In this document: positions 44,642 to 61,617 of the stretch, one piece after another
Layout: each line of letters starts with the position of its first letter
Position numbering within the stretch: position 1 is the stretch's first letter
DNA from: Comamonadaceae bacterium
Lineage (GTDB): Bacteria; Pseudomonadota; Gammaproteobacteria; Burkholderiales; Burkholderiaceae_C
Length of the DNA: 64,000 nucleotides
Direction of reading: 5' to 3'
Assembly: GCA_027484105.1 (NCBI GenBank)
Contig: JAIXUG010000004.1
Coordinates: 1 to 64,000 of the forward strand
Position numbers and translations under genes: made by a program
Notes under the pieces: model-generated
The model's input: only the letters and a program-made list of their open reading frames with translations
The model's database searches: none
Told to the model about the DNA's origin: nothing

Positions 44642-45721
44642 ATGGATCGTCGTTCCGTAATTAAAAACGCCGGTATCGCTGGCGTCTTGGCTGCCGGTGC
44701 TGCACCCGCTGTACACGCCCAGGCCGCCATCCGCTGGCGCCTTGCTTCCAGCTTCCCGAAAGCCCTGGACACCATCTTTGGTGCAGCCGAAGTGTTCGCC
44801 GAAAAGGTCAATGCCATGTCTGGCGGCAAGTTTGTCGTCACCACGCATGCAGCAGGCGAGTTGATGCCCGCTTTTGGTGTGTTGGACGGTGTGCAGCAAG
44901 GCACCGTGGAAGCGGCTCACACAGCGCCTTACTACTTCTTCGGCAAGGACGACACTTTTGCCCTGGGCACAGCCATTCCGTTTGGTCTGAACAGCCGCCA
45001 GCTCACATCCTGGTTTTATGACGGCAACGGCATGAAGCTGTTCCGTGAGTTCTACGACAAGTACAACATCGTGAACTTCCCGGGCGGCAACACAGGCGCC
45101 CAAATGGGTGGCTGGTACCGCAAGGAAATCAAGACCCTGGCCGACATCAAGGGCCTGAAGTTCCGCGTTGGCGGTTTCGCTGGCAAGGTCATGACCCGCA
45201 TGGGCGCTGTGCCCCAGAACATCCCTGGTGGCGAAATTTACCAAGCCCTGGAAAAAGGCACCATCGACGCCGTTGAGTGGGTCGGTCCTTACGATGACGA
45301 GAAGCTGGGCTTCCAAAAAGTGGCCAAGAACTACTACTACCCAGGCTTCTGGGAAGGCGGCGCACAGCTGGACTTCTACATCAACAAGGCTGCTTTCAAT
45401 GCCTTGTCCAAAGACAACCAAGCCATTGTGGAAGCTGCTGCGTCTTACGCGCACACCGAAATGCAAGCACGTTACGACAACCGCAACCCTGCGGCACTCA
45501 AGCGCTTGGTGGCCGGTGGTGTCAAGTTGCGGCCTTTCCCCAAGGTGGTGATGGACGAGGCCTTCAAGCAGTCCATGGCCCTGTACGAAGAGCTGCGCCA
45601 GTCCAACCCGAACTGGAAAAAGATCTACGACGACTACTCGGCTTTCCGCAAGGATCAAAACCAGTGGTTCCGCTTCACCGAAGCCACATTCGATCGCTAC
45701 ATGCAATCGGCCAAGCTGTAA
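44642..45721 (+). CDS. dctP: TRAP transporter substrate-binding protein (DctP/TakP-like)
   Basis: 359 residues. Start: ATG at 44642; the open frame upstream holds the promoter. MDRRSVIKNAGIAGVLAAGA has twin Arg and ends VHAQA, a probable Tat signal. The mature protein has IRWRLASSFPKALDTIFGAA, the receptor arginine region FRVGGFAGKVM, and GGEIYQALEKGTIDAVEWVG (about residues 200-219), the DctP signature. Sequence features resemble the TakP branch that binds 2-oxo acids. Its membrane partners dctQ and dctM lie downstream but are separated by a terminator and a regulator gene. Periplasmic capture of an organic acid is expected; the ligand is not certain. Confidence 0.93.
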   Translation: MDRRSVIKNAGIAGVLAAGAAPAVHAQAAIRWRLASSFPKALDTIFGAAEVFAEKVNAMSGGKFVVTTHAAGELMPAFGVLDGVQQGTVEAAHTAPYYFFGKDDTFALGTAIPFGLNSRQLTSWFYDGNGMKLFREFYDKYNIVNFPGGNTGAQMGGWYRKEIKTLADIKGLKFRVGGFAGKVMTRMGAVPQNIPGGEIYQALEKGTIDAVEWVGPYDDEKLGFQKVAKNYYYPGFWEGGAQLDFYINKAAFNALSKDNQAIVEAAASYAHTEMQARYDNRNPAALKRLVAGGVKLRPFPKVVMDEAFKQSMALYEELRQSNPNWKKIYDDYSAFRKDQNQWFRFTEATFDRYMQSAKL

Positions 45722-45738
45722 TCATCTGCTGCGACCGA

Positions 45739-45767
45739 AGAAAAAAGGCCCCTCGGGGCCTTTTTTC
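45739..45767. terminator. Intrinsic terminator between dctP and the regulator gene
   Basis: A run, GGCCCC, loop TC, GGGGCC, then six T. It separates dctP from the regulator gene and so lets the binding protein be made in excess. Confidence 0.93.
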
Positions 45768-45794
45768 ATGGGCTTGTCCTCATTTCGCTTCGTC

Positions 45795-45805
45795 ATGCAA
45801 ACTTG
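45795..45805. promoter_or_regulatory. Candidate half operator in front of the ModE-like regulator
   Basis: ATGCAAACTTG, identical to 49517-49527 inside the palindrome upstream of tupB. It ends five bases before the regulator ATG, a position suited to autorepression. The right half of the palindrome is not conserved here. Confidence 0.45.
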
Positions 45806-45810
45806 GCACC

Positions 45811-46935
45811 ATGCAACACATCGAGCTTTCTTACCAATGGACGCCCCCGGGCGCTGAACCGGTACGCAACCGCCAAAGTCCGCTGCGCAACCCACTCATG
45901 GACTTGTTGCAAGCTGTGCGCGATACGGGCTCCATCGGCGGAGCGGCCAAGGCCATGGGGCTGTCCTACCGCCATGTTTGGGGTCAGCTCAAGCGCTGGG
46001 AGGACAGCCTGGGCCAATCCCTGATCCTTTGGGAGAAGGGGCAGGCGGCCAGGCTCACGGGTTTTGCCGACAAGTTGCTGTGGGCCGAGCGTCAGGCGCA
46101 GGCTCGGCTGTTGCCCCAAATCAGTGCGCTGCATGCCGACCTGGAGAAAACATTTGCAGTGGCCTTTGACCCTGCGCACCTGGTCTTGCCGATTTTTGCC
46201 AGCCATGATGCGGCCATGGACCTGTTGCGTGAAGAAGCGGCATCCAGGGCTTTGCATCTGGATTTGCGCTTTTGCGGCAGCGTGGACGCGATCCGGGCGC
46301 TGAACGAGGGCCGGTGCCATGTGGCGGGCTTTCATGCCCCTTGGCAGCCCGATGCCCCATCGCTGGTCGCACGCACCTACAAGCCCTTGCTCAAAATAGG
46401 TCAGCACAAATTGATCGGTTTTGCCAAGCGTGCACAGGGCCTCATGGTCGCCCGGGGCAACCCCTTGGGCTTGCGGGATTGGGCCGATTTGTGCAAGGGT
46501 GATGTGCGCTTTGTGAACCGCAGCCCCGGGACCGGAACCCGTCTGCTGTTGGACCAAAACTTACAAGAAAGAGGTCTCGTGCCCGCATCGATCAAGGGCT
46601 ATGCGCATGAGGAAAACTCGCATTCGGCTGTGGCAGCTCGTATTGCCGCAGGGCAGGCCGATGTGGGTCTGGGCATCGCCCATGCGGCCGAAGGGCATGG
46701 CCTCGACTTTGTGCCACTGTCGCAAGAGTTTTATTGGTTGGTGTGTCTGGCATCGGCGCTGGACACCCCGCCGGTGTTGCAACTGCGGCAGTTGTTGGGC
46801 AGTGCCGCCTGGCGGGCCAGCTTACAGGCCCTCAAGGGCTACAGCCCCATCGATCAAGCCGGTCAGGTGCAGTCTTTGCGCAGCATGCTGCCCTGGTGGC
46901 AATTCCGGTCTTCACGGCACAGCGCGGGCGCTTGA
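45811..46935 (+). CDS. ModE-type HTH regulator with periplasmic-binding-like effector domain
   Basis: 374 residues, cytoplasmic. Residues 25-100 form a ModE/LysR-like winged HTH: NPLMDLLQAVRDTGSIGGAA, KAMGLSYRHVWGQLKRWEDS, then ARLTGFADKLL. Residues 110-355 form a substrate-binding-protein-like domain (DLRFCGSVDAIRALNEGRCH, VNRSPGTGTRLLLDQ, ADVGLGIAHAAEGHGLDFVP), as in one-component regulators that sense molybdate or tungstate or a related ligand. The start at 45811 was chosen since upstream codons span the terminator. It sits between dctP and dctQM and close to tupBCA and the AOR operon, and matching sites occur upstream of itself, tupB and the AOR operon. A tungstate-responsive role is inference. 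Confidence 0.85.
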   Translation: MQHIELSYQWTPPGAEPVRNRQSPLRNPLMDLLQAVRDTGSIGGAAKAMGLSYRHVWGQLKRWEDSLGQSLILWEKGQAARLTGFADKLLWAERQAQARLLPQISALHADLEKTFAVAFDPAHLVLPIFASHDAAMDLLREEAASRALHLDLRFCGSVDAIRALNEGRCHVAGFHAPWQPDAPSLVARTYKPLLKIGQHKLIGFAKRAQGLMVARGNPLGLRDWADLCKGDVRFVNRSPGTGTRLLLDQNLQERGLVPASIKGYAHEENSHSAVAARIAAGQADVGLGIAHAAEGHGLDFVPLSQEFYWLVCLASALDTPPVLQLRQLLGSAAWRASLQALKGYSPIDQAGQVQSLRSMLPWWQFRSSRHSAGA

Positions 46936-47063
46936 CGCGCAACGGCATGGCGGTTTGAAAGGCTTTCACACAGCACATCAAAAATATCAACTTGAGTTTT
47001 CAGGGCCTGATCCGGGAATCCATCAACACAGACTTACAATCGCGCAAGTTTTTTGGAGTTCGC

Positions 47064-47663
47064 ATGTCATCTTTATTGAAACTTTCAAGCGGCATTGACC
47101 GTTTGAACAAAGGGGTGGGCAAATTCACCACCTGGCTGATTTTGATCGTGACGATCATCAGTGCCGCCAATGCCATTGTCCGCAAAGCTTTCAACATCAG
47201 CTCGAACGGCATGTTGGAAATTCAGTGGTATTTGTTCGCGGCCGTTTTCTTGTTGGGGGCGGGTTACGGCTTCCTCAAAAACTCGCATGTGCGCATCGAC
47301 TTCATCTCGGGCAAGCTCAGCGCACGTGCCCGCAACTGGATCGACGTGGGCGGTATCTTGTTGGCCCTGTTTCCGTTTTGTTTCTTGTGCATTTACTTGT
47401 CTTGGCCCTTGTTCGTGCAGGCTTACAACACCGGTGAAATGTCGTCCAACGCGGGCGGCTTGATCCGCTGGCCGGTGTATGCCTTGGTGCCTCTGGGCTT
47501 TGGCTTGCTGATGTTGCAAGGTGTCTCCGAACTGATCAAGCGCCTTTCTTTCTTGTCAGGGGTTGGGGAAGACCCCCTGTCTTCTGAAGACACCATGTCA
47601 GACGAAGAAAAAGAACTGCTGGAACTTGAAAAAATCGCGCAGCAAGCGCAGGGAGCCCGTTGA
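47064..47663 (+). CDS. dctQ: TRAP transporter small membrane subunit
   Basis: 199 residues with four transmembrane helices, the DctQ fold. GKFTTWLILIVTIISAANAI, then GMLEIQWYLFAAVFLLGAGY and HVRIDFISGKLSARARNWID are typical. The C-terminus is extended and charged (DEEKELLELEKIAQQAQGAR). Start: ATG at 47064 with TTGGAG upstream. It overlaps dctM as TGATG. Its own promoter is probably in 46936-47063, since the regulator gene precedes it. It partners the DctP encoded before the regulator. Confidence 0.92.
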   Translation: MSSLLKLSSGIDRLNKGVGKFTTWLILIVTIISAANAIVRKAFNISSNGMLEIQWYLFAAVFLLGAGYGFLKNSHVRIDFISGKLSARARNWIDVGGILLALFPFCFLCIYLSWPLFVQAYNTGEMSSNAGGLIRWPVYALVPLGFGLLMLQGVSELIKRLSFLSGVGEDPLSSEDTMSDEEKELLELEKIAQQAQGAR

Positions 47664-49459
47664 TGGAAGCGACTTTTTTGGCACAAAACTTTGTGCCCAT
47701 CATGTTTGCCGGTTTGTTTGTGCTGCTGCTGACCGGTTTTCCGGTGGCCTTCGCTCTGGCTGCGTGCGGTTTGGGCTTTGGCTTCATTGGCATGGAAGCC
47801 GGCCTGTTCCCGCCCTCCTTGTTCCAAGCCTTGCCGCTGCGCATTTTCGGCATCATGCAAAACGACACCTTGCTGGCCATTCCATTTTTCACCTTCATGG
47901 GCATCATCTTGCAAAAGTCCGGCATGGCCGAGGACTTGTTGGAGACGGTAGGCCAGGTGTTTGGTCCCGTGCGTGGCGGCGTGGCGATTGCGGTGATCTT
48001 GGTGGGCGCTTTGTTGGCCGCCACCACCGGTGTGGTGGCCGCAGCCGTGATTTCCATGGGCCTGATTTCTTTGCCCATCATGCTGCGCTACGGCTACAGC
48101 CGCGTCATTGCCACCGGAACCATCACGGCCTCGGGTACCTTGGCGCAAGCCATTCCGCCTTCGTTGGTGTTGATTGTGCTGGCCGACCAATTGGGCCGTT
48201 CGGTGGGTGACATGTACGCCGGTGCCTTGTTGCCCGGTCTGTTGCTCGTGGGACTGTATGTCTTGTTCATTGTGGTGGTGGCGATTTTCAAGCCCGCCAT
48301 GGTGCCTGCCTTGCCGCCCGAAGCCCGCATCTACCGCGAGGCCAATGGCAAATCGGGTCATGTGTCCTTGATGTTCCTATTGATCGTGTGCACGGTGGTC
48401 GGTTTTGCATGGGCTTCGTCCCACGATGCCATCATGACCGCTTGGCTGGACCGCACCCAAGAGTCACCCGGCGATGAAATGGTCATCATGTCCTTGACCG
48501 TCGCGTCCTTGGTGGCTTTGGCCTTGGCCATTGTCAACCGGATCACCGGTATGGGCTTGTTGTCGCGCTTGGCTGAGCAAGTGACCTTTGTGCTGATGCC
48601 GCCCCTGATCTTGATCTTTTTGGTTCTGGGTACCATCTTCTTGGGTGTCGCGACCCCCACAGAGGGCGGTGCGATGGGCGCTTTGGGTGCTTTGATTTTG
48701 GCGGTCAGCAGAAAGCGCTTGGACAAGAAATTGATGAACCAGGCGCTGGAAAACACGGCCAAGCTGGCATCGTTTGTGCTGTTCATCCTGATCGGCTCCA
48801 CCGTGTTCAGCTTCACCTTCAATGCGGCCGATGGCCACATTTGGGTGGAACACTTGTTTGTCGACATGCCCGGCGGTGCGATCGGTTTCCTGATCGTGGT
48901 GAACATCCTGATTTTCATCTTGGGTTGTTTCATCGATTTCTTTGAAATCGCCTTCATCGTGATCCCGATCCTGGCGCCCGTGGCCGAAAAGATCTTGCCC
49001 GGTTTGGTGCCTGGCATGACCCCCGACCAGGCCATGATCTGGTTCGGGGTGATCGTGGCGATGAACCTGCAGACCTCGTTCCTGACGCCGCCGTTTGGCT
49101 TTGCCCTGTTCTATTTGCGCAGCGTGGCGCCCAAAAACGATTACAAGGACCGGATCACGGGGGAGAACATTCCTTCGGTCAAGACCTCTGAAATCTACAA
49201 AGGTTCGATCGCCTTCATTATTTTGCAGTTGATCATGGTGGCGGCCATCATCATCTTCCCTAACTTGGTGACGGGTGGCATCAAGGAAGGTGTCAAGATC
49301 GATGCCGATGCTGCGTTTGAGCAAATGCTCGACCAAGCAGGGGAAGACGATGACAAGGACGACGAAGTGAACATGGATGACATGAAGCCTGCTTCAGATG
49401 CATCGGCACAGGACCCTGCCAAGGCCTTGGAAGCCGAGATGAAGGCTGGCAAGAAGTAA
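47663..49459 (+). CDS. dctM: TRAP transporter large membrane subunit, long form
   Basis: 598 residues, the sodium-coupled transport subunit. Family blocks: VAFALAACGLGFGFIGME, LLAIPFFTFMGIILQKSGMA, GALLAATTGVVAAAVISMG, TPTEGGAMGALGAL and FLTPPFGFALFYLR. It is longer than the common 430-residue DctM: an extra part of about 60 residues around 245-300 with added hydrophobic segments, and an acidic C-terminal tail (GEDDDKDDEVNMDDMK). Long DctM proteins usually go with TakP-type receptors. ATG overlaps the dctQ stop. A terminator follows. Confidence 0.93.
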   Translation: MEATFLAQNFVPIMFAGLFVLLLTGFPVAFALAACGLGFGFIGMEAGLFPPSLFQALPLRIFGIMQNDTLLAIPFFTFMGIILQKSGMAEDLLETVGQVFGPVRGGVAIAVILVGALLAATTGVVAAAVISMGLISLPIMLRYGYSRVIATGTITASGTLAQAIPPSLVLIVLADQLGRSVGDMYAGALLPGLLLVGLYVLFIVVVAIFKPAMVPALPPEARIYREANGKSGHVSLMFLLIVCTVVGFAWASSHDAIMTAWLDRTQESPGDEMVIMSLTVASLVALALAIVNRITGMGLLSRLAEQVTFVLMPPLILIFLVLGTIFLGVATPTEGGAMGALGALILAVSRKRLDKKLMNQALENTAKLASFVLFILIGSTVFSFTFNAADGHIWVEHLFVDMPGGAIGFLIVVNILIFILGCFIDFFEIAFIVIPILAPVAEKILPGLVPGMTPDQAMIWFGVIVAMNLQTSFLTPPFGFALFYLRSVAPKNDYKDRITGENIPSVKTSEIYKGSIAFIILQLIMVAAIIIFPNLVTGGIKEGVKIDADAAFEQMLDQAGEDDDKDDEVNMDDMKPASDASAQDPAKALEAEMKAGKK

Positions 49460-49474
49460 ATTCTTGTCGCCCCA

Positions 49475-49505
49475 TGAAGAGCCCGGTTCGCCGGGCTTTT
49501 TTCAT
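49475..49505. terminator. Intrinsic terminator after dctM
   Basis: ATGAAGAGCCCGG, loop TTCG, CCGGGCTTTTTTCAT. It closes the TRAP transcript before the tup promoter. Confidence 0.93.
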
Positions 49506-49514
49506 GGCGCTGGC

Positions 49515-49534
49515 CTATGCAAACTTGTTCATAG
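49515..49534. promoter_or_regulatory. Candidate operator upstream of tupB
   Basis: CTATGCA-N7-TCATAG. The outer arms CTATG and CATAG are a perfect inverted repeat. Fifteen of 20 bases match 53114-53133 upstream of the AOR operon, and 11 bases match the site before the ModE-like regulator. It lies 55 bases before the tupB ATG. Confidence 0.55.
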
Positions 49535-49588
49535 TGGACACCCCTCATGCTTTGGCGGGTGCATGTGCCGTAGCATCCACAGCGCTGT

Positions 49589-50332
49589 ATGAACACCTTC
49601 TCGGACAGCGTCTTGACGGCGCTGAATCTCGTCATATCTTTCGACCCTGCCCTGTGGGTGGTGGTGGTCAGGTCTTTGGCCGTCAGTGCCACGGCCTGTG
49701 CCCTGGCTTATGGCGTGGGCGTCGCCCTGGGGGCCTGGTTGGCGGTGTCCCGTTTTCGCGGCCGTGGTCCGTTGCTGGTGGGCCTGAACACCCTGTTGGC
49801 GCTGCCTTCGGTGGTGGTGGGCTTGGTGGTTTACCTCCTGCTGTCGCGCACCGGGCCCTTGGGCTTTTTGGGCTGGTTGTTCAGCTTCAAAGCCATGGTG
49901 CTGGCCCAGTTCATTTTGGTCGTGCCAGTGGTCACGGCCCTGACACGTCAAGTGGTCGAGGACGCCGAGCGCCAGCAGGGTGAGCAGTGGGCTTCTTTGG
50001 GCGCGGGCCCTTGGGTGCGTGGTTTGCTCTTGGCTTGGGATGAGCGTTTGGCTTTGCTCATGATTGGCGTCACAGCGTTTGGCCGCGCCATTTCGGAAGT
50101 GGGCGCGGTCATGATCGTGGGCGGCAACATCGATGGCTTCACCCGTGTGATGACCACCGCCATTGCCCTGGAAACCAGCAAGGGCGATTTGCCGTTGGCG
50201 CTGGGGCTGGGCATGGTCTTGCTGGCCGTGGTGTTGCTGCTCAATGCGCTGGTGGCGGGCCTGCGGCGCTGGGGCGAGGCACGCCATGCGCGGCCCGCTG
50301 CGGCCGATGGTCTGGTGGGTGCGCAGCCATGA
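49589..50332 (+). CDS. tupB: Tungstate ABC transporter permease
   Basis: 247 residues with five to six membrane helices. The inner-membrane-component signature for ATPase contact is EQWASLGAGPWVRGLLLAWD (about residues 131-150), and GRAISEVGAVMIVGGNIDGF (about 169-188) is a stretch typical of TupB-type permeases. It forms the channel for oxyanion import. tupC overlaps its stop (ATGA). The order B-C-A in one operon with a TupA-type receptor argues for tungstate rather than molybdate or sulfate. Gene start chosen at the only ATG near the conserved N-terminus. Confidence 0.92.
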   Translation: MNTFSDSVLTALNLVISFDPALWVVVVRSLAVSATACALAYGVGVALGAWLAVSRFRGRGPLLVGLNTLLALPSVVVGLVVYLLLSRTGPLGFLGWLFSFKAMVLAQFILVVPVVTALTRQVVEDAERQQGEQWASLGAGPWVRGLLLAWDERLALLMIGVTAFGRAISEVGAVMIVGGNIDGFTRVMTTAIALETSKGDLPLALGLGMVLLAVVLLLNALVAGLRRWGEARHARPAAADGLVGAQP

Positions 50333-51057
50333 GCGCCGTGCAAATCACGCTGGACGCGGTCAGCGTCCAGTTGGGGGCACAACAGGTCTTGAAGGGCGTG
50401 CGCTTGCGCATCGTGGCGGGTGAGCGCGTGGCGCTGGTGGGGGCCAATGGCTCGGGCAAAAGCAGCTTGCTGCGCACACTGCATGGTTTGGTGCTGCCCA
50501 CACAAGGGCAGGTGACTCAAGCGCCGGGTGTGCGCCAGGCCATGCTGTTCCAAAGGCCGCACATGCTGCGCCTGTCGGCTTTGAACAATGTGGCGCTGGG
50601 GGTGTGGCTGGACCGTTCGCTGGCCTTGAATTGGCAGGCCGCTCAAGCTTTGGCCCTGCAGGCATTGCACCGCGTGGGCCTGGAGTCTGTGGCGCAGCAA
50701 AACGGTCGTCAGTTGTCGGGCGGGCAGCAGCAGCGCTTGGCGCTGGCACGGGCTTGGGCGCGCCAGCCCCATGTCTTGTTGCTCGATGAGCCCACGGCCA
50801 GCTTGGACCCGCATGCCAAGCGCGAGGTCGAAGCCCTGATGGCCGAGTTTGCAGCCGGGTCGCAAGCCGACAAACCCTTGACCTTGGTCTGGGCCAGTCA
50901 CAACCTGGGCCAGGTCAAGCGCTTGGCCACCCGTGTCATTTACCTGGAGGCAGGTCGTGTTTTGGCCGACCTGCCTGTGGCTGATTTTTTTAACCCTCCA
51001 CTGTTGGCTGAGATCAGCCCTGCAGCCCATGCTTTTGTTCAAGGAGAACTTTCATGA
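50329..51057 (+). CDS. tupC: Tungstate ABC transporter ATP-binding protein
   Basis: 242 residues. Walker A GANGSGKSSLLRTLHGL (about residues 37-53), Q-loop in MLFQRPHMLRLSA, signature QLSGGQQQRLALARAWARQP, Walker B VLLLDEPTASLDP and the H-loop Asn-His in LVWASHNLGQVK. It powers the TupB channel. It has no C-terminal MOP domain, as expected for TupC and unlike ModC. Overlaps tupB and tupA by four bases on each side, so the three are translated together. Confidence 0.93.
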   Translation: MSAVQITLDAVSVQLGAQQVLKGVRLRIVAGERVALVGANGSGKSSLLRTLHGLVLPTQGQVTQAPGVRQAMLFQRPHMLRLSALNNVALGVWLDRSLALNWQAAQALALQALHRVGLESVAQQNGRQLSGGQQQRLALARAWARQPHVLLLDEPTASLDPHAKREVEALMAEFAAGSQADKPLTLVWASHNLGQVKRLATRVIYLEAGRVLADLPVADFFNPPLLAEISPAAHAFVQGELS

Positions 51058-51869
51058 CCTTTCCACTTTCAATGACCCGCCGCGCCTTGGTCAGCGCCGT
51101 TTTGGCCAGCACCTCGTTGTGGGCGCAAGCCCAATCGATCGTGATGTCCTCCACCACATCGACCGAGCAATCGGGCTTGTTTTCGCATCTTTTGCCTGCC
51201 TTCAAAAAAGCCAGTGGGCTGGACGTGAAAGTGGTGGCCTTGGGCACCGGCCAGGCGCTCGATATGGCGCGACGCGGTGACGCCGATGTGGTGTTTGTGC
51301 ACGACCAAGCGGCCGAAGAAAAATTCGTAGCCGATGGTTTTGGCATCAAGCGCCTGCCCGTGATGTACAACGACTTTGTGCTGATTGGCCCCAAAGCCGA
51401 TCCGGCAGCCACCCGTGGCAAAGACATTGTGGCGGCCTTGGCCAAATTGTCTGCAAGCAATGCCGCTTTTGTCTCGCGCGGTGACAAGAGCGGCACGCAT
51501 GCGGCCGAGTTGCGCTTTTGGAAAGCTGCCAACCTGGAGGCCGCCAAAGGCAAGGGTTACCGCGAGTGCGGCTGCGGCATGGGCCCGGCTTTGAACATTG
51601 CGGCGTCTTCGGGCGCCTATGTGTTGTCAGACCGTGCCACCTGGCTGAACTTCAAGAACCGGGCCGATCTGACCATTTTGGTGGAGGGCGATCAGCGCTT
51701 GTTCAACCAGTACGGGGTGATGGTGGTCAACCCCGCCAAGCATGCGCACGTCAAACAAGCCGATGCGCAGAAATTTGTGGACTGGATCACTTCGCCCGCA
51801 GGGCAGGGCGTGATTGCGGACTACAAGATTGGCGGTGAGCAGTTGTTCTTCCCGAATGCGGGCAGATGA
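51054..51869 (+). CDS. tupA: Tungstate-binding periplasmic protein
   Basis: 271 residues. The signal MTFPLSMTRRALVSAVLAST carries twin Arg and ends WAQAQ, so Tat or Sec export. The mature N-terminus has the oxyanion motif MSSTTSTEQSGLFSHLLPAF; a TTS-T-x-x-SGL run is the TupA/WtpA-independent signature distinguishing it from ModA. GTGQALDMARRGDADVVFVH and SRGDKSGTHAAELRFW are further TupA blocks. It delivers tungstate to TupB. It is directly upstream of the AOR cluster, which needs tungsten. The convergent GAF-Fis gene ends 25 bases away. Confidence 0.93.
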   Translation: MTFPLSMTRRALVSAVLASTSLWAQAQSIVMSSTTSTEQSGLFSHLLPAFKKASGLDVKVVALGTGQALDMARRGDADVVFVHDQAAEEKFVADGFGIKRLPVMYNDFVLIGPKADPAATRGKDIVAALAKLSASNAAFVSRGDKSGTHAAELRFWKAANLEAAKGKGYRECGCGMGPALNIAASSGAYVLSDRATWLNFKNRADLTILVEGDQRLFNQYGVMVVNPAKHAHVKQADAQKFVDWITSPAGQGVIADYKIGGEQLFFPNAGR

Positions 51870-51894
51870 GCAGGGCATCTCACCTGCGTTGTGT

Positions 51895-53019
51895 TCAGCC
51901 TCTGGGCAAGCCGAGTTTGCGGTAAACCGTGGCGCGGCTGATGCCGAGAGCTCGGGCGGCTTCGGCCACATTGCCGCGCGCCTGGTTCACCGCCTCGCGG
52001 ATCATGTCGGTCTGCACGTCTTTCAGGGGTTTGGGGGCGGTGCTGGCCCGGGGTGTGGCTGTAGTGGGTTGGGGCGGCGTGAGGGGTCGGCCCGCGCGCA
52101 AAGCCTGAGTCTGCAAACGCAAGCCTGACCACAGCGGCAGCTCTTGTGCGCTGGCTTGGCGGCTGGCCGTATCGAAGAGGCTTTCCCAGGGAGAGGCAAA
52201 GACATCACTGGCGTGCAGCATTTGGCCGTGGACATCTGGGGACAAGGACAGCATTTGCCGTGCGGTGGGGTTGGCCCCCAGGATGTGGCCGTCGGCATCC
52301 AGCGTGAGCAGGCCGTCGCTGTCATCACCGGGCTGGTTGCCTGGCCAGTTCAGGCGCAGCACCAGAGCATGCGCGGTGGACAAGAGCCAGCTGTTTTCGA
52401 TGCTGCGGGCTGAGCGGCGCACCAGGTGTTTCAAGGCCGCGCGTTCGGTGGTCTCGATGCCCGTCAGGTCCAGCATGCCCGCGCACAGGCCATCAGGCCC
52501 GAACACGGGCGCACCCGCGCAGCTGTACACCCCGGTGTCCTGGAAGAAATGCTCGCCCCGGTGCAGCCACACGGGTTGCAACTCGGTCAATGCGGCGCTG
52601 ATGGCGGTGGTGCCCACGGCTTTTTCGGACAAATCCACCCCCACGCGGGCGATCACCTCGGCGCGGCGGTCTTGACGATCCACTGGGCCATGCACGTCCA
52701 CCACGATGCCTTCGGCATTGGTCAGGATGGCAAAGTAGCGGATGTCGGCAATGGCCCGTGCCAGCTCGACCAGCACCGGTTGGGCCGCTTGCAGCAGCGG
52801 ACGGCTGGATTCTTGCACCCGGCGCATGTGTTGCACGGAAATCGCGTCAAAACCAACGCCATGGCTGGGCTGCAAACCCATGTCGATGCAGCGCTGCCAA
52901 GACCGGGTGATCCAGGGGGCCAGCTCGGCCGCCAGGCCACCTGAATTGCCCTGAAACACCAGGTCACGGGCTTGTTCAATCCGCTGCAAGCGGTCGCTGT
53001 GGTCTGCAGTCAGGGGCAT
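51895..53019 (-). CDS. GAF-domain, Fis-type HTH regulator lacking the AAA+ domain (AcoR-like)
   Basis: 374 residues. The N-terminal part (ITRSWQRCIDMGLQPSHG, then a GAF domain about residues 75-225 with NAEGIVVDVHGPVDRQ and LSEKAVGTTAISAAL) matches AcoR-type activators of aldehyde/acetoin catabolism. A PAS-like piece (LLTLDADGHILGANPTARQM) follows. The C-terminus is a Fis HTH (DMIREAVNQARGNVAEAARA, LGISRATVYRKLG). The sigma-54-interacting AAA+ domain is absent, so it cannot activate sigma-54 promoters in the usual way. It is divergent from the AOR operon and probably controls it, perhaps sensing an aldehyde or alcohol. Confidence 0.9.
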   Translation of the reverse strand: MPLTADHSDRLQRIEQARDLVFQGNSGGLAAELAPWITRSWQRCIDMGLQPSHGVGFDAISVQHMRRVQESSRPLLQAAQPVLVELARAIADIRYFAILTNAEGIVVDVHGPVDRQDRRAEVIARVGVDLSEKAVGTTAISAALTELQPVWLHRGEHFFQDTGVYSCAGAPVFGPDGLCAGMLDLTGIETTERAALKHLVRRSARSIENSWLLSTAHALVLRLNWPGNQPGDDSDGLLTLDADGHILGANPTARQMLSLSPDVHGQMLHASDVFASPWESLFDTASRQASAQELPLWSGLRLQTQALRAGRPLTPPQPTTATPRASTAPKPLKDVQTDMIREAVNQARGNVAEAARALGISRATVYRKLGLPRG

Positions 53020-53054
53020 GTCAGATGTGTATCAAGCTGAGAATTTTTGAGGAC

Positions 53055-53075
53055 AACCCCTTAAAACCTAGGGTT
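53055..53075. promoter_or_regulatory. Inverted repeat between GAF-Fis regulator and AOR operon
   Basis: AACCC (53055-53059) and GGGTT (53071-53075) around an AT-rich centre, 36 bases from the regulator ATG. Candidate site for the GAF-Fis protein; weak by sequence alone. Confidence 0.35.
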
Positions 53076-53113
53076 AATCCGCATCGGTTTGCAGGGGTAT
53101 TCACCAACAATGG

Positions 53114-53133
53114 CTATGCATTCTGATTCATAT
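53114..53133. promoter_or_regulatory. Candidate operator upstream of the AOR operon
   Basis: CTATGCA-N7-TCATAT, 15 of 20 bases identical to the tupB site (49515-49534), 40 bases before the ferredoxin-subunit ATG. Confidence 0.55.
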
Positions 53134-53173
53134 GCGCGTGCTTGAACTGCCCGCCACCTCACAGGAGACACAC

Positions 53174-53650
53174 ATGCAGAAAGTCCTGCACATCAATCCG
53201 GACAAATGCACCGGCTGCTTGCAGTGCGAAATGGCCTGTTCTTTCGAGAACTACGGCACATACGCCACCTCCAAATCGCGCATCAAGGTGTTTGACTTCC
53301 ACCACACCGGTAAAAAAGTCCCCTACACCTGCACCCAGTGCGACGAAGCCTGGTGCTTGCACGCATGCCCTGTGGAAGCGATCACCGTGGACAAGGCCAC
53401 GGGCGCCAAAGTGGTCAACGAGTCCACCTGTGTGGGTTGCAAGGTCTGCACCATTGCCTGCCCCTTCGGCACCATCAACTACGTGCAAGAGACTGGCAAG
53501 GTACAAAAGTGCGACCTGTGTGGCGGTGACCCGGCTTGCGCCGATGCTTGCCCGACCGGTGCGATCACGTTTGTGGACGCCAACTGGACTGGCATCGACA
53601 AGATGAAGCAGTGGGCCGACAAGTTGGGCAATCAGCCCTCGGCCTCTTAA
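53174..53650 (+). CDS. aorA: Four-cluster ferredoxin subunit of aldehyde oxidoreductase (AorA-like)
   Basis: 158 residues with four cysteine groups, each in typical [4Fe-4S] form: CTGCLQCEMAC (about residue 14), CTQCDEAWCLHACP (about 54), CVGCKVCTIACPF (about 86) and CDLCGGDPACADACP (about 112). This is the polyferredoxin type found as electron-transfer subunit of multimeric tungsten AORs and of DMSO-reductase-like enzymes. The ATG at 53174 with AGGAG before it is the first gene of the operon. The AOR catalytic gene follows after 23 bases. It passes electrons between the tungsten subunit and the flavin subunit encoded downstream. Confidence 0.92.
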   Translation: MQKVLHINPDKCTGCLQCEMACSFENYGTYATSKSRIKVFDFHHTGKKVPYTCTQCDEAWCLHACPVEAITVDKATGAKVVNESTCVGCKVCTIACPFGTINYVQETGKVQKCDLCGGDPACADACPTGAITFVDANWTGIDKMKQWADKLGNQPSAS

Positions 53651-53673
53651 ATCCCCCCATAAGGAGCATCAAC

Positions 53674-55521
53674 ATGTCTTGGGCTGGAAAAATTCTCCGC
53701 GTCAACCTCACGGCGGGCACCGTCAAATTCGAACCGCTGAACATGGAGTGGGCCAAAGCCTACCTTGGCTCACGCGGTCTGGGCAGCAAATACCTGATCA
53801 GCGAGATCAACCCAAAAGTCGATCCCCTGTCGGCCGACAACAAAATCATTTGGGCCACGGGCCCATTGACTGGCACCATGGCCTCCACCGGTGGCCGCTA
53901 CACCGTCATCACCAAGAGCCCACTCACCGGCGCGATTGCCTGCTCCAACTCGGGCGGCTATTGGGGCGCCGAGCTGAAAATGGCCGGTTGGGACATGGTC
54001 ATTTTTGAGGGCGCATCGCCCAAGCCGGTGTACCTCTACATTAACGACGACGAAGCCGAGTTGCGCGATGCCAGCCACCTGTGGGGCCAAAGCGTCTGGA
54101 AGACCGAAGAAATCCTCAAGACCAGCCTGCAAGATCCGCTGCTGCGCATCTCGAGCATTGGCAAGGCCGGTGAAAACGGCGTGCTCTACGCTGCGGTGGT
54201 GAACGACTTGCACCGTGCAGCGGGCCGCTCGGGCGTGGGCACCGTGATGGGCAGCAAAAACCTCAAGGCCATTGCGGTGCGTGGCACCAAAGGCGTGGGA
54301 AATATTCAAAACCCCAAGGCCTTCATGGCTGCGACCAAGGCGGCCAAAAAGGTGTTGGCCGACAACGCGGTCACGGGCCAGGGCCTGCCAGCGTATGGCA
54401 CTCAGGTGCTGATGAACGTGATCAACGAAGTCGGTGGTTTGCCGACTCGCAATCACCGTGATGTGCAGTTTGAAAGCGCCAAAGACATCTCGGCCGAAGC
54501 CATGGTCACGCCCCGCGAGACCGATGGCAAAAAGCACCTGGTGACCAACCAGGCTTGCTTTGGTTGTACCATCGCCTGCGGTCGCATCAGCAAGATGGAC
54601 GAAGGCCACTTCTCCGTCAAGAACAAGCCTGAGTATTGGGGCGCTAGTGGCGGCCTGGAGTACGAAGCGGCTTGGGCGCTGGGCGCAGCCAACGGCGTGA
54701 AAGACTTGGAAGCCTTGCAATACGCCAACATGATTTGCAACGAAGAAGGCTTTGACCCGATCAGCTTTGGCACCACCGTAGGCGCCGTCATGGAGCTGTA
54801 TGAGATGGGCGTGTTGACCAAAGAGCAGCTGGGCATCGAGGCGCCCTTTGGCTCGGCGCAAGCGCTGTGCGAGTTTGCCGACATGACCGCCAAGGGCACC
54901 GGTTTTGGCAAGGAAATTGGCATGGGCTCCAAGCGCCTGACCGCCAAATATGGCCACCCTGACCTGTCCATGAGCGTCAAGGGCCAAGAGTTCCCGGCCT
55001 ACGACGGTCGCGTGATCCAAGGCATTGGCCTGGCTTACGCCACCTCCAACCGCGGTGCTTGCCACTTGCGCGGCTACACCATCGCCTCTGAAGTGCTGGG
55101 CATTCCGGTCAAAACCGAGCCGACCGAGCACGAAGGCAAGCCAGAATTGGTCAAGGCCTTCCAGGACGCGACAGCCGCGTTTGACTCCGCAGGCATCTGC
55201 GTTTTCACCAGCTTTGCCTGGACCCTGGCCGACGTGGCCCCTCAGGTGCAAGCGGCCTGTGGCGAGGAGTTCACCATGGAGCACTTGAACCACATCGGCG
55301 AGCGCATCTGGAACATGGAGCGGGAGTTCAACAACGCCGCAGGCTTCACCAAGGCCGACGACAACCTGCCCAAGCGCCTGATGACCGAAGCCGCCAAAAC
55401 CGGCCCCGGCAAAGGCATGGTCAGCAAGTTGGACGAAATGCTGCCCAAGTACTATGACGCGCGTGGCTGGGACGATGAAGGTCGCCCCACATCGGCCACC
55501 CTGGAACGTCTGGGTTTGTGA
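53674..55521 (+). CDS. aorB: Tungsten aldehyde:ferredoxin oxidoreductase, catalytic subunit
   Basis: 615 residues, close to Pyrococcus AOR (about 605). It oxidises aldehydes to acids (or the reverse) at a bis-tungstopterin. Cluster ligands are Cys295, Cys298 and Cys302 in ACFGCTIACGR and Cys509 in DSAGICVFTSFAW, matching Cys288/291/295/494 of the archaeal enzyme. Cofactor-contact regions include GRYTVITKSPLTGAIACSNS, NSGGYWGAELKMAGWD, RSGVGTVMGSKNLKAI and ATSNRGACHLRGY. Start: ATG at 53674 with AAGGAG. The frame reaches back into the ferredoxin gene but that part is non-coding. Order ferredoxin-AOR-flavoprotein-MoaD matches the described AorABC enzyme of Aromatoleum. Symbol by analogy. Confidence 0.95.
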   Translation: MSWAGKILRVNLTAGTVKFEPLNMEWAKAYLGSRGLGSKYLISEINPKVDPLSADNKIIWATGPLTGTMASTGGRYTVITKSPLTGAIACSNSGGYWGAELKMAGWDMVIFEGASPKPVYLYINDDEAELRDASHLWGQSVWKTEEILKTSLQDPLLRISSIGKAGENGVLYAAVVNDLHRAAGRSGVGTVMGSKNLKAIAVRGTKGVGNIQNPKAFMAATKAAKKVLADNAVTGQGLPAYGTQVLMNVINEVGGLPTRNHRDVQFESAKDISAEAMVTPRETDGKKHLVTNQACFGCTIACGRISKMDEGHFSVKNKPEYWGASGGLEYEAAWALGAANGVKDLEALQYANMICNEEGFDPISFGTTVGAVMELYEMGVLTKEQLGIEAPFGSAQALCEFADMTAKGTGFGKEIGMGSKRLTAKYGHPDLSMSVKGQEFPAYDGRVIQGIGLAYATSNRGACHLRGYTIASEVLGIPVKTEPTEHEGKPELVKAFQDATAAFDSAGICVFTSFAWTLADVAPQVQAACGEEFTMEHLNHIGERIWNMEREFNNAAGFTKADDNLPKRLMTEAAKTGPGKGMVSKLDEMLPKYYDARGWDDEGRPTSATLERLGL

Positions 55522-55528
55522 GCTAGCC

Positions 55529-55610
55529 CCTGTAGGAGCGAGCGCCTGCTCGTGAAGCCTTCGCCGTAGGGGTGCGCTTCTACAGGAATCCAAGCGGCCT
55601 GCGGGCCGCT
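55529..55610. repeat. REP-like element, copy 3, and hairpin inside the AOR operon
   Basis: CCTGTAGGAGCG (55529-55540) pairs with CGCTTCTACAGG (55575-55586) with one mismatch, framing two REP-type units in inverted orientation. A second hairpin, AGCGGCC-TGCG-GGCCGCT (55593-55610), follows. No U-run, so not a terminator. It lies between the catalytic and the flavin subunit genes. Confidence 0.75.
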
Positions 55611-55632
55611 ACCTGTTTCTGGAGTCTGATTC

Positions 55633-56973
55633 ATGACCCACCACGTCATCTTGGGCGCAGGCCCTGCAGGCGTCATCGCCGCCGAAACCCTGCGCAAACA
55701 TGCCCCCACCGACACCATCACTTTGGTGGGTGACGAGCCCGATGCGCCTTACTCGCGCATGGCCATCCCTTATTTGCTGATCGGCAACATCGAAGAGCAG
55801 GGCACTTACCTGCGCAAGAGCGCCACCCACTTTGACGATTTGCGCATCACGCAAGTCAAGGCCAAAGTCACCCGCGTCGATGCAGCGGGCAAAACGGTGC
55901 ACTTGGACAACGGCCAGTCGATGGCCTTTGACAAGCTCTTGATCGCCACCGGCTCGCACCCGGTACGCCCACCCATTGCGGGCATGGACCTGCCGGGCGT
56001 GCACCCCTGCTGGACGCTGGAAGACGCGCGCGCCATCCAGGCGCTGGCCAAGCCGGGTGCCCGTGTGTTGCAAATGGGCGCAGGCTTCATTGGCTGCATC
56101 ATCATGGAAGCGCTGGCGGCGCGCGGCGTCAAGCTGAGCGTGGTGGAGATGGGCGACCGCATGGTGCCCCGCATGATGGGCCCGGTGGCGGGCGGCATGA
56201 TCCGCGACTGGTGCGAAGCCAAAGGCGTGCAGGTGTTCACCGGCACCAAGGTCGAAGCCATCAGCCAAGGTGCCGAAAAAGGCTTGCTCGGCAAGTTGGC
56301 TTCTGCGGTGGGCTTGGCCTCAGACGATGCCAGTGGCGCGCTGCAGGTGCGCTTATCCAATGGCCAAACCGTTGAGGCCGATCTGGTCATCAGCGCCACC
56401 GGCGTGCGCCCAGCGATTGGCTTTTTGAAGGACAGCGGCATCACCTGCCTGCAAGGCGTGTTGACCGACCAGCACCTGCAAACCAATGTGCCCGGCATCT
56501 ACGCTGCAGGCGACTGCGCCGAAGCTTTTGACATGGTCAGCGGCAAAACGATTGTGAGCGCCATCCAGCCCAACGCCGCCGAGCAGGCGCGTGTGGCCGC
56601 GCTCAACATGCTGGGCCAAAAAACCGAGCTCAAAGGCGTCACGCAAATCAACGTGCTCGACACCCTGGGTTTGATCTCCACCAGTTTTGGCAACTGGGAA
56701 GGCGTGGCCGATGGCCAGTCGGCGGTGTTGACCGACAAGGCCGCAGGCCGTCACCTGAGCTTGCAGTTCAAGGACGATGTGATGATCGGCTGCAACAGCG
56801 TGGGCTGGACCGAGCATGTGGGCGTGATGCGCGGCCTGGTCGAAGGCCAGGTGCGCCTGGGCGACTGGAAAGACCGCCTGATGCACGACCCGACCAAGTT
56901 GGTGGATGCCTATTTGGACTGTGCTCAGGGCCAGGGGCGCTGGAGTGGTGCCGCCGATGCGCGTCGCCGCTGA
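55633..56973 (+). CDS. aorC: FAD/NAD-dependent oxidoreductase subunit (AorC-like)
   Basis: 446 residues of the pyridine-nucleotide-disulfide oxidoreductase fold. FAD site VILGAGPAGVIAAETLRK (residues 5-22), NAD site VLQMGAGFIGCIIMEALAAR (about 145-164), and second FAD motif YAAGDCAEAFDM (about 290-301). It resembles the class I NADH-oxidase/rubredoxin-reductase-like subunits that link AOR to NAD(H). No redox disulfide of the glutathione-reductase type is seen. GGAG precedes the ATG. It lies 111 bases after the AOR gene, separated by a REP-like element, and 15 bases before the MoaD-like gene. Confidence 0.9.
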   Translation: MTHHVILGAGPAGVIAAETLRKHAPTDTITLVGDEPDAPYSRMAIPYLLIGNIEEQGTYLRKSATHFDDLRITQVKAKVTRVDAAGKTVHLDNGQSMAFDKLLIATGSHPVRPPIAGMDLPGVHPCWTLEDARAIQALAKPGARVLQMGAGFIGCIIMEALAARGVKLSVVEMGDRMVPRMMGPVAGGMIRDWCEAKGVQVFTGTKVEAISQGAEKGLLGKLASAVGLASDDASGALQVRLSNGQTVEADLVISATGVRPAIGFLKDSGITCLQGVLTDQHLQTNVPGIYAAGDCAEAFDMVSGKTIVSAIQPNAAEQARVAALNMLGQKTELKGVTQINVLDTLGLISTSFGNWEGVADGQSAVLTDKAAGRHLSLQFKDDVMIGCNSVGWTEHVGVMRGLVEGQVRLGDWKDRLMHDPTKLVDAYLDCAQGQGRWSGAADARRR

Positions 56974-56988
56974 AGCGACAATCTGCGC

Positions 56989-57243
56989 ATGAACATCACT
57001 TTCAAACTGTTTGCCACGCTGACCGACTATTTGCCTGCCGAGGCCCGTCGCAGCAACCAGGTCACGCTGGATGTGGCGCAGGACGCCAGCATCAGCCAGA
57101 TCATCGAGCCCTTCGGCATGCCCCCCAAGCTCGTGCATCTGGTGCTGGTCAACGGCAAATACATCAAACCCGAAGACCGGGACACCACCAGCCTGGTTGA
57201 AGGCGACGTGCTGGCGATCTGGCCACCCGTGGCGGGCGGCTGA
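56989..57243 (+). CDS. MoaD/ThiS-family sulfur carrier
   Basis: 84 residues with a ubiquitin-like fold, ending AIWPPVAGG. The C-terminal Gly-Gly is the site that is adenylated and thiocarboxylated to give sulfur for the dithiolene of molybdopterin. Hydrophobic core FKLFATLTDYLPAEA and LVLVNGKYI are typical. A dedicated MoaD copy next to AOR genes is often seen and may supply tungstopterin for this enzyme. Partner enzymes MoaE and MoeB are not in the window. Confidence 0.9.
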   Translation: MNITFKLFATLTDYLPAEARRSNQVTLDVAQDASISQIIEPFGMPPKLVHLVLVNGKYIKPEDRDTTSLVEGDVLAIWPPVAGG

Positions 57244-57269
57244 AGTCTGCGCAGGCAGGTCTTGTTTTC

Positions 57270-57569
57270 GTGCAGTCCTACTATCCCGAGCGCTTCGAGC
57301 GCGACATGGGCACCAGCGAAACCGAATGGTTGACGGCCTTGCCCCGCGCACTGGGCCAGCATGCCTTTGTGCTGGGCACCGGCCAGGTGCGTGTGCAGAT
57401 CGGTGAAGGCCATCTGCAACTGCAATGGCACACCCTGCCGCCACGCGTGATCGCGCTGCTGCGCTTGCAGCGCTTGGCGGTCTCTTTTGTGTTTGAAGGC
57501 GTGCAAGAAGATGCGCGCCAGCGCTTCATGCAGCACTTTGATTTGTCGATGCAGCGGGGTGGGGGGTGA
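57270..57569 (+). CDS. Small protein of unknown function, last gene of the AOR operon
   Basis: 99 residues starting at a GTG (57270) 26 bases after the MoaD stop: MQSYYPERFERDMGTSETEW by position. There is no signal peptide, no Cys and no metal motif; the region VRVQIGEGHLQLQWHTLPPR looks beta-rich and VIALLRLQRLAVSFVFEGV hydrophobic. I do not recognise the family. Close packing behind aorC-moaD suggests a role in AOR maturation or stability, which is inference. The start codon is uncertain as no strong ribosome site is visible. The brnA gene converges 89 bases on. Confidence 0.65.
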   Translation: MQSYYPERFERDMGTSETEWLTALPRALGQHAFVLGTGQVRVQIGEGHLQLQWHTLPPRVIALLRLQRLAVSFVFEGVQEDARQRFMQHFDLSMQRGGG

Positions 57570-57658: not shown

Positions 57659-57928
57659 TCAGAGTTGCCCGGCCAATCTCAAGGAAGCGCGCAATGCCTC
57701 GTTGATGCGCGTTTGCCAGCCCTCACCACTGGCCCGCAAGGCGGCCAGGACATCTGCATCCAAACGAAGCTTGACGGGCTCTTTGGTCATGGCGGCCTTG
57801 GGGCGTCCTCGGGGTTTGAGTTGCTTGCCTTCGTAAAGTTCAGCCGATTTGAAAAATTCGGCCGTCAAAGGCGGCGCGTCATCCGGATCAATCCAGGGCG
57901 CGGGCGTAGAGCGCTTTTTCTCGGTCAT
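57659..57928 (-). CDS. brnA: BrnA-family antitoxin
   Basis: 89 residues. The C-terminal half VKLRLDADVLAALRASGEGW, then QTRINEALRASL, is a ribbon-helix-helix DNA-binding domain typical of BrnA, and the N-terminal WIDPDDAPPLTAEFF is the toxin-binding part. BrnA neutralises the ribonuclease BrnT and represses the operon. The start overlaps the 3' end of brnT by 41 bases, so translation is coupled, with the toxin encoded first as usual for this family. Confidence 0.93.
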   Translation of the reverse strand: MTEKKRSTPAPWIDPDDAPPLTAEFFKSAELYEGKQLKPRGRPKAAMTKEPVKLRLDADVLAALRASGEGWQTRINEALRASLRLAGQL

Positions 57929-58160
57929 TGGCTTTCCTCATGCTGATGATGCGGCGCACTTTGCCGCGTGGGGTCCAGACCAAAACAATCAAGCGGGCAT
58001 CCAAGAAACCCACAGTGATGAACCGGTCTTCGGTGTAGTTGATCCTTGAGTCCTGGCCGGTGAAGTGCATGCCTTCAAAGACTTCTTGAGCGCGGGCAAA
58101 ATCCAAACCACGCTCCAACAGCGTCTGGTCTCGTTTTGCAGGGTCGAACTCAAGATCCAT
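57888..58160 (-). CDS. brnT: BrnT-family ribonuclease toxin
   Basis: 90 residues, RelE-like fold. Starts MDLEFDPAKRDQTLLERGLD; FARAQEVFEGMH, then RINYTEDRFITVGFLDARLIV and VRRIISMRKANDREKALYARA contain the conserved Arg and His/Glu/Lys residues of BrnT. Cleaves RNA and inhibits growth when not bound by BrnA. First gene of the brnTA operon. A 15-base palindrome lies 14 bases before the ATG as probable BrnA operator. Located at the border of the AOR operon and crcB. Confidence 0.94.
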   Translation of the reverse strand: MDLEFDPAKRDQTLLERGLDFARAQEVFEGMHFTGQDSRINYTEDRFITVGFLDARLIVLVWTPRGKVRRIISMRKANDREKALYARALD

Positions 58161-58232: not shown

Positions 58233-58622
58233 TCATCGCGCCCAGAGCAGACCCACGGTTTTAAGTCCCAGCACCGTGAGAGCCAGTGAGCCGAACAAGT
58301 GCAAACTGGCCGTGCCTGCCGCCAGCGCAAAGCGGCCTTGCTGCAGCATGGCCACCACCTCGGCTGAAAAGCTGGAAAACGTGGTGAGTGCCCCCAAAAA
58401 ACCGGTGACCAGGGCCAAGCGCCAAACCGGGTCCAGCTCGGGCAGTTGCTGGAACACGCCCACACACACGCCCACCAAGTAGCCACCGATCAGGTTCGCC
58501 GCCAAGGTGCCCCAAGGCAGCAGGCCAGCGCTGGCGGTGCTGGGGTTGAGCCACAGGCCCAGCTGCCAGCGCGACAGCGCACCCACACAAGCCCCCAGAC
58601 AAATCGCGATCACCGTGAGCAT
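58233..58622 (-). CDS. crcB: Fluoride channel/exporter
   Basis: 129 residues, four membrane helices, Fluc family dimeric fluoride channel. GACVGALSRWQLGLWL, WGTLAANLIGGYLVG (with the conserved Asn), VTGFLGALTTFSSFSAEVV (the Phe-box and Na+ site TTFSTF-like) are all present. It protects the cell from fluoride. No fluoride riboswitch was recognised in the 34-base gap to rdgC. It may be co-transcribed with rdgC. Confidence 0.94.
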   Translation of the reverse strand: MLTVIAICLGACVGALSRWQLGLWLNPSTASAGLLPWGTLAANLIGGYLVGVCVGVFQQLPELDPVWRLALVTGFLGALTTFSSFSAEVVAMLQQGRFALAAGTASLHLFGSLALTVLGLKTVGLLWAR

Positions 58623-58656
58623 GGCGTGGGTCCTTTCGCTTGGGGTTTACCGACGA

Positions 58657-61611: not shown

Positions 61612-61617
61612 TCGGTC

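Follow-up and report, generated by a model that had tools for sequence, protein, structure and literature searches.

The locus described here occupies positions 44,642 to 57,569 of a 64,000-nucleotide stretch (hereafter the window) of contig JAIXUG010000004.1 from a Comamonadaceae bacterium, whose 3.1 Mb genome has a completeness rating of 100%. It encodes the tripartite ATP-independent periplasmic (TRAP) transporter genes takP, dctQ and dctM, a regulator with a helix-turn-helix (HTH) and a periplasmic-binding-protein (PBP)-like domain that we call REG, the tungstate transporter genes tupBCA, a GAF-Fis regulator and an operon, aorABCDE, for a tungsten aldehyde oxidoreductase (AOR) (Table 1). 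Gene families were assigned by Pfam/NCBIfam profile searches, and every gene named in an earlier note on this DNA was found at or near the place given for it there, including the TRAP transporter split by REG between takP and dctQ. That note had proposed a tungsten regulon covering the entire block; the joining of tup to aor stands, with two exact operator sites that are conserved in AOR loci and track REG, and the TRAP transporter probably falls outside it. We favor, with a probability of roughly 0.7, a regulon in which REG and its operator govern tup and aor, with the TRAP operon as a neighbor and an exchangeable slot to the right of tupA.

Table 1. Genes and sites of the tup-aor locus and its right-hand border, in window coordinates (FAD, flavin adenine dinucleotide; NAD, nicotinamide adenine dinucleotide; ABC, ATP-binding cassette).
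Feature	Position	Strand	Support
takP, TRAP solute-binding protein (DctP family, TakP-like)	44642..45721	+	PF03480 E 2.7e-59; best PDB relative 2hzk/2hzl E 6e-124
REG, LysR/ModE-type HTH + PBP_like sensor, between takP and dctQ	45811..46935	+	HTH_1 E 1.3e-9, PBP_like PF12727 E 3.4e-58
dctQ, TRAP small permease	47064..47663	+	PF04290 E 2.6e-24
dctM, TRAP large permease	47663..49459	+	PF06808 E 1.8e-87
Hairpin with T-tract, terminator-like, between dctM and tupB operator	49472..49507	+	-29 kcal/mol (z -3.6) for the fold of 49455-49520
Operator 1, TATGCAAACTTGTTCATA, before tupB	49516..49533	+	one of two exact genome matches
tupB, tungstate permease	49589..50332	+	NF041773 E 6.1e-49, below curated equivalog cut-off
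tupC, ATP-binding subunit	50329..51057	+	ABC_tran E 1.7e-29
tupA, tungstate-binding protein	51054..51869	+	NF041772 E 4.9e-71, below cut-off; PDB 3lr1 E 6e-72
GAF-Fis regulator, divergent from aorA	51895..53019	-	GAF E 6e-6, HTH_8 E 3.1e-11
Operator 2, TATGCATTCTGATTCATA, before aorA	53115..53132	+	second of two exact genome matches
aorA, polyferredoxin subunit, 16 Cys in translation	53174..53650	+	Fer4 families
aorB, tungsten AOR large subunit	53674..55521	+	AFOR_N E 3e-81, AFOR_C E 1.5e-136; 8c0z_A 1047 bits
aorC, FAD/NAD subunit	55633..56973	+	Pyr_redox_2 E 1.5e-53
aorD, MoaD/ThiS-like carrier	56989..57243	+	ThiS E 5.2e-9, Ub-Mut7C E 6.9e-11
aorE-like 99-aa protein, C-terminal RGGG	57270..57569	+	kept in 69/71 AOR loci
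brnA/brnT toxin-antitoxin genes, just beyond exchangeable slot	57659..58160	-	PF14384, PF04365
crcB + rdgC, right-hand slot border	58233..59673	-	PF02537, PF04381

The upstream regions of tupB share a strongly conserved inverted repeat, TATGCA-N6-TKCATA, which occurs in exact form only twice in the window genome, before tupB and before aorA. Operators were counted over the window and loci L031-L130 (101 loci), using distinct upstream regions within 250 bp of the start codon and leaving out duplicates, truncated upstream regions and matches below 40% identity; chance expectations were taken from dinucleotide shuffles. The shorter pattern TATG-N10-CATA precedes tupB in 54/58 cases, aorA in 56/77, REG in 34/50 (in loci with a shared upstream region between divergent REG and tupB) and the GAF-Fis gene in 37/64 (a region shared with aorA), while it was found within 250 bp upstream of neither takP (0/43) nor dctQ (0/41). 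The shuffles predicted at most 0.1 occurrences each for tupB, aorA, takP and dctQ, and at most 0.2 for any set. The operator also stands before tupB in 15 of the 15 fetched AOR-less loci that hold both REG and tupB. The shared candidate operators of the earlier note are thus far beyond chance before tupB and aorA across loci, and do not extend to takP or dctQ. A scan of the window alone, allowing up to one mismatch, returned seven matches, which is at chance level (mean 4.8), the two perfect ones being the tupB and aorA sites; the window genome as a whole contains six further matches with one mismatch. Control by a riboswitch was rejected, as an Rfam search of the window at gathering thresholds reported only a tRNA, and a generic promoter scan gave one sigma-70-like site, fewer than the 3.1 that shuffled sequence gave on average.

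REG carries the PBP-like sensor that is characteristic of the TaoR family of regulators. The HTH_17/excisionase-like domain of that family was not found in REG, which has HTH_1 in its place. As for the ModE-type HTH named in the earlier note, the ModE-domain match is weak (TIGR00637, E 9e-9, below the cut-off), with no TOBE domain detected in REG at E 0.001. A structural model of REG (mean pLDDT, the predicted local distance difference test, 84.7) was matched by Foldseek to full-length LysR-type regulators (E 3e-14; whole-chain template-modeling score 0.42).

The distribution of REG and that of the operator coincide to a considerable extent. We searched 100 relatives for AorB, TakP, TupA and REG (the latter at a threshold of E 1e-20) and tabulated 60 genomes of the same genus; below, G numbers refer to genomes and L numbers to loci. 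Six genus genomes have tupA and no REG match. G008, G015, G022 and G047 have continuous DNA from dctQ to tupB that contains no REG, no REG match anywhere in the genome, and no operator. A dxs tree, built without G015 and G047, pairs G008 with G043 and G022 with L056, and since both G043 and L056 keep REG and the operator, two separate joint losses of the regulator and its site are likely. Outside the genus, the operator occurs within 250 bp upstream of 7/9 REG genes (expected 0.015), one gene being taken from each of nine genomes among the 19 there that gave a REG match. Altogether, the operator distribution and the four genomes that lack both REG and the operator make tup and aor, and not the TRAP transporter, the most likely targets of REG.

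What, then, is the role of the TRAP genes? The window TakP scores 417 bits against 2hzk/2hzl, aligned along residues 1-355; 2-oxo acids are the ligands of TakP relatives, which suggests that this system is an importer of 2-oxo acids or related carboxylates. Among the 60 genus genomes, 32 have an AOR match (two of them, G040 and G048, fragments only). Both takP and tupA are present in 28/28 genomes that are at least 95% complete (20 with AOR, 8 without), lying within 10 kb of each other in 26 of these and on different contigs in the other two. Over all 60 genomes, the two genes are within 10 kb in 24/28 AOR-positive and 20/22 AOR-less genomes holding both. As the block is equally present without AOR, TRAP, regulator and tup form a core of the genus that does not depend on AOR. 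The block is bordered on the left by dxs in all loci that reach that far except L115, and is internally rearranged: besides the takP-REG-dctQM-tup order of the window, there are loci in which takP-dctQM is followed by an inverted REG in front of tupB, others in which both dctQM and REG are inverted, and others again in which takP and REG are inverted while dctQM stays forward. The genus thus has at least four arrangements, of which the split one is a single example. The comparison of gene order in relatives that the earlier note had called for therefore has a mixed outcome, with adjacency kept, though rearranged, within the genus, and not seen beyond it (takP and tupA within 10 kb in 0/10 outside-genus genomes with matches to both, compared by eye).

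The view from the AOR side is similar. The AOR locus set comprises the best 80 of 499 relatives and leans to near kin for that reason, the closest loci being titled Limnohabitans and related Comamonadaceae; one Limnohabitans-type AOR block (L037) appears under the title of an Akkermansia muciniphila metagenome-assembled genome, probably a binning error or a stray contig. The 55 loci of this set with at least 9.9 kb of upstream DNA contain tupA in 34 cases, REG in 30 and takP in 27, and takP never occurs among them without tupA. AOR loci titled Hydrogenophaga, Polaromonas or Tepidicella have no takP in the upstream DNA compared, and in other genera the TRAP matches near AOR are at only 22-30%. 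To judge by this distribution, the TRAP neighbor appears to be a feature of the Limnohabitans group. The window contains a second TRAP transporter to the right of rdgC (59735-62595, minus strand), of which several genus loci have close copies next to the block.

The alternative put forward in the earlier note, a single tungsten regulon spanning all 13 kb whose TRAP system would carry the substrate or product of AOR into or out of the cell, draws on the persistent adjacency of TRAP, regulator and tup through at least four internal arrangements, on the position of REG inside the TRAP operon of the window, and on the 2-oxo-acid ligands of TakP relatives, its best PDB match being 2hzk/2hzl. A link from 2-oxo acid to aldehyde to acid is possible; the distribution gives it no support. 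We rejected the inclusion of TRAP in the regulon because no operator was found in the compared regions before takP or dctQ, because a hairpin with a T-tract (unlisted by a generic terminator scan) stands between dctM and the tupB operator, and because the takP-tup linkage is equally strong without AOR and was not seen outside the genus, and we regard the single regulon as improbable. Given the lack of an operator and the hairpin before tup, the TRAP operon is probably a co-inherited importer of the 2-oxo-acid type and not a member of the metal regulon.

Several observations weigh against control of tup and aor by REG as we propose it. The pattern TATG-N10-CATA is missing from 21/77 aorA upstream regions, 2/9 outside-genus REG genes have no site, 21/55 AOR loci with about 10 kb of upstream DNA have no tupA there, and a neighbor such as TRAP can be functionally linked without a common operator. 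The four genomes without REG and operator are only 81-89% complete. G010 and G057 keep the tup operator and have no REG match; these genomes are 75% and 82% complete, and as their contigs (L061, L175) stop where REG could be expected, the gene may be in missing sequence. Finally, allowing up to two mismatches in the window genome yields 58 forward and 50 reverse matches, compared to 10 and 10 for a reversed control pattern, an excess which means that the regulon may be wider or that the core may be shared with another TGCA-type regulator.

The latter point leads to a second alternative, namely that the operator belongs to a BoxR/BzdR-like or to the GAF-Fis regulator instead of REG. Its TGCA-N6-TGCA core resembles BoxR/BzdR boxes, and two one-mismatch sites, probably boxes of that regulator, flank a BoxR-like (HTH + shikimate-kinase-like) gene of the window genome, with neighbors that presumably correspond to box genes. 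Around this gene (G000:C7:202646-203728; L132) there are three TGCA-type near-sites with one or two mismatches. In addition, one operator sits between the GAF-Fis gene and aorA, and G010 and G057 lack the REG match. On the other hand, the operator is found before tupB in cox-type loci (described below) with no GAF-Fis match and before REG in other families, and it is missing in the four genomes whose continuous locus has no REG; the tup/aor-type sites track REG. Assignment of the operator to another regulator thus seems to us a poor contender, and we retain REG as the most likely controller of tup and aor.

The genes for a polyferredoxin, an AFOR-type large subunit and an FAD subunit are adjacent in the window, as in the three-subunit, NAD-linked AorABC enzymes of bacteria, and AorB can be aligned end to end with the solved enzyme of Aromatoleum aromaticum (8c0z); by these similarities, aorABCDE is predicted to encode a tungsten aldehyde oxidoreductase together with two proteins of putative maturation function. 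A GAF-Fis gene is divergent within 600 bp of aorA in 51 of the 68 AOR loci whose sequence extends 1.7 kb or more upstream of that gene. The TupA matches to 3lr1 and 5my5 keep the arginine of the anion site, for which the TTTS motif and the Arg118 region have been described (PMC5517513). The first motif is STTS instead of TTTS in 55/55 TupA frames, and the arginine is present in 55/55, with a search pattern that required [RK]GD.SGTH.

Downstream of aorB, among 71 AOR loci with at least 2.6 kb on that side, aorD is found in 71 and the gene for the 99-aa protein, unnamed in the earlier note, in 69. The latter protein gave no Pfam or NCBIfam family above noise. Its RGGG end is invariant in 24/24 aligned sequences (the window row and 23 of the 71 locus rows, picked for spread), and its predicted fold (strand-helix-four strands-helix, mean pLDDT 88) is matched best in Foldseek by the Thermus thermophilus MoaD-related protein 1v8c (E 1.8e-3, with none at or below 1e-3); the matched part would presumably be the C-terminal domain of 1v8c. 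A PDB profile search up to E 10 did not report 1v8c. We take the gene to be aorE by its position after the moaD-like gene, given that aorD and aorE are described as MoaD-like by Arndt et al. (PMC6365974).

The place to the right of tupA is an exchangeable slot, which holds AOR, a form-II CoxSLM-type operon, or neither. In the window it is filled with the GAF-Fis gene and aorABCDE and extends up to brnTA, crcB and rdgC; whether a locus carries AOR, cox or neither, crcB/rdgC are found on the right-hand side of the slot, either adjoining it or about 3-4 kb away. Cox genes follow tupA in 12/17 AOR-less genus loci compared (L111-L116, L118, L119, L122, L125-L127), and L120, L121 and L124 have no cox gene after tupA in the DNA compared. 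Pfam searches of L111 identified XdhC, CoxG, CoxE, an AAA ATPase (CoxD by position), and CoxM-type and CoxL-type proteins. The motif AYRGAGR, which we take to be the active-site signature of form II CoxL, was found in CoxL of 8/20 loci scanned (L111-L115, L118, L119, L122), and CoxS was found wherever the upstream end of the cox operon was fetched. In 10/12 cox loci the cox genes point towards tup, XdhC being the closest of them, and in the extended loci L151-L155 crcB or rdgC comes after coxS, directly or some 3-4 kb on. G024 and G053 have tupBCA-coxSLMDEG on one strand with the tupB operator only and no XdhC match, the arrangement ending at the brnTA region in G024 and at crcB in G053. G008 and G052 carry the cox operon beside rdgC, on a different contig from tup. 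The slot of G022 contains nothing, and in G049 a lone GAF-Fis gene remains between tupA and crcB (L117, 7608-8714), the aor genes being gone.

Genome-wide, coxL with at least 80% identity (some matches partial) is present in 18/28 AOR-less genomes and 1/32 AOR-positive ones; counting cox without this identity limit, the figures are 20/28 and 1/32 (Fisher p 1e-8, or 4e-7 for 18/28, with kinship ignored). Strict exclusion of one operon by the other was rejected, because G044 has both. In this genome a second copy of REG is divergent from coxSLMDEG-XdhC with an operator between them (L131, 6902-15736). In the second REG of G044, as in several other REG matches, the alignment runs over a single in-frame stop; the open frame is ~370 codons long, and this stop is most likely the natural end. 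The cox-side stretch of G044, from the operator on, matches the promoter region of its own tupB (29/35 bases including the operator), and its later part matches the coxS leader of G053 (48/59), so that cox appears to have been placed behind a promoter of the tup type. In the dxs tree the cox genomes G024 and G053 are nested separately among AOR genomes with Shimodaira-Hasegawa-like approximate likelihood ratio test (SH-aLRT) values of 84-85, which suggests repeated independent exchange of AOR and cox; the starred branches force only one cox change.

Form-II cox operons are classed as molybdenum enzymes, and their presence bears on which metal REG senses. It is possible, although we consider it unlikely, that REG responds to molybdate or to both oxyanions and that the block is a general molybdenum/tungsten locus with AOR as one of several such enzymes, an idea compatible with the wiring proposed here. 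The occupation of one slot by cox and AOR, the cox operon of G044 that follows REG and its operator, and the genome G076 from another family (L130, 7659-13019), where REG and tupBCA lie beside moeA and a mobA-like gene, all agree with it. (A nitrate reductase next to tup in G076 proved wrong; after moeA and the mobA-like gene come unrelated genes.) Against it, the TupA-type binding residues and AOR itself point to tungstate, and modA, two moeA genes and PF00384-type enzymes were found in 13/13 genus genomes tested, which implies a separate molybdenum transport. One could even speculate that the form-II CoxSLM-type enzyme in the slot is a xanthine oxidase family enzyme that uses tungsten, or that it at least takes over the function of AOR, such that one metal switch would serve two unrelated aldehyde/hydroxylase enzymes, but we consider this a long shot.

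Returning to a tungsten-responsive REG, we propose that it acts as a one-component regulator whose LysR/ModE-type DNA-binding domain would bind TATGCA-N6-TKCATA before tupBCA, for tungstate import, and before aorABCDE. Tungstate is the presumed ligand of its PBP domain, judging from the neighboring genes and the likeness to TaoR. Metal-loaded REG would lower tup and raise aor, by analogy with TaoR of Desulfovibrio, which reportedly also controls tupABC. The GAF-Fis protein would probably add a substrate or redox input to aor, and the TRAP operon of the window would merely host the REG gene.

For the use of tungsten by freshwater bacteria of the Limnohabitans group, these results supply a concrete, testable operator and a candidate regulator, and the metal module proves to persist in relatives that lack its supposed client enzyme. 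They point to a natural exchange, at one chromosomal place, of a tungsten enzyme for an enzyme of the xanthine oxidase family, so that the choice of a cell between tungsten and molybdenum enzymes can be tested directly; they also draw attention to a second small protein encoded in the AOR operon, which is conserved and unclassified. In the open-access literature, as covered by titles and the starts of abstracts, we found nothing on the operator, the TRAP-tup-AOR block or a tup-linked form-II cox operon.

Some of the components have known counterparts. The structures 2hzk/2hzl are those of TakP from the Rhodobacter sphaeroides TRAP system, with ligands of the 2-oxo-acid class; the window TakP differs in adjoining a tungstate locus. 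On a plasmid of Cetobacterium somerae, tupABC is likewise located upstream of a tungsten oxidoreductase (WOR) operon, WOR41, but the enzyme is a Class V WOR from a strict anaerobe, and the main text mentions neither a TRAP transporter nor a regulator (PMC13328260). The moeA1-mobB-tupBCA cluster of the aerobe Methylorubrum extorquens also combines the tungstate transporter with maturation of a tungsten cofactor, although, unlike the window, it serves formate dehydrogenase (PMC13197769). TaoR (Rajeev et al. 2019, as cited in PMC11980592), a characterized regulator of tungsten aldehyde oxidoreductase, resembles REG in the fusion of an HTH to a PBP-like domain. TaoR-like proteins carry HTH_17 (PMC11980592), whereas REG has a LysR/ModE-type HTH_1 without TOBE, and its operator was defined de novo; because of the different HTH class, we suggest that REG works like TaoR and do not class it as a member of that family. 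The closest counterpart of the enzyme is AorABCDE of Aromatoleum aromaticum EbN1, with the same aorABC and two small putative maturation genes (PMC6365974). In comparison with EbN1, the last aor gene of the window has no Pfam family, ends in RGGG and is equated with aorE by position, and the window operon adjoins tupBCA, with which it has a common operator, in a Limnohabitans-like genome.

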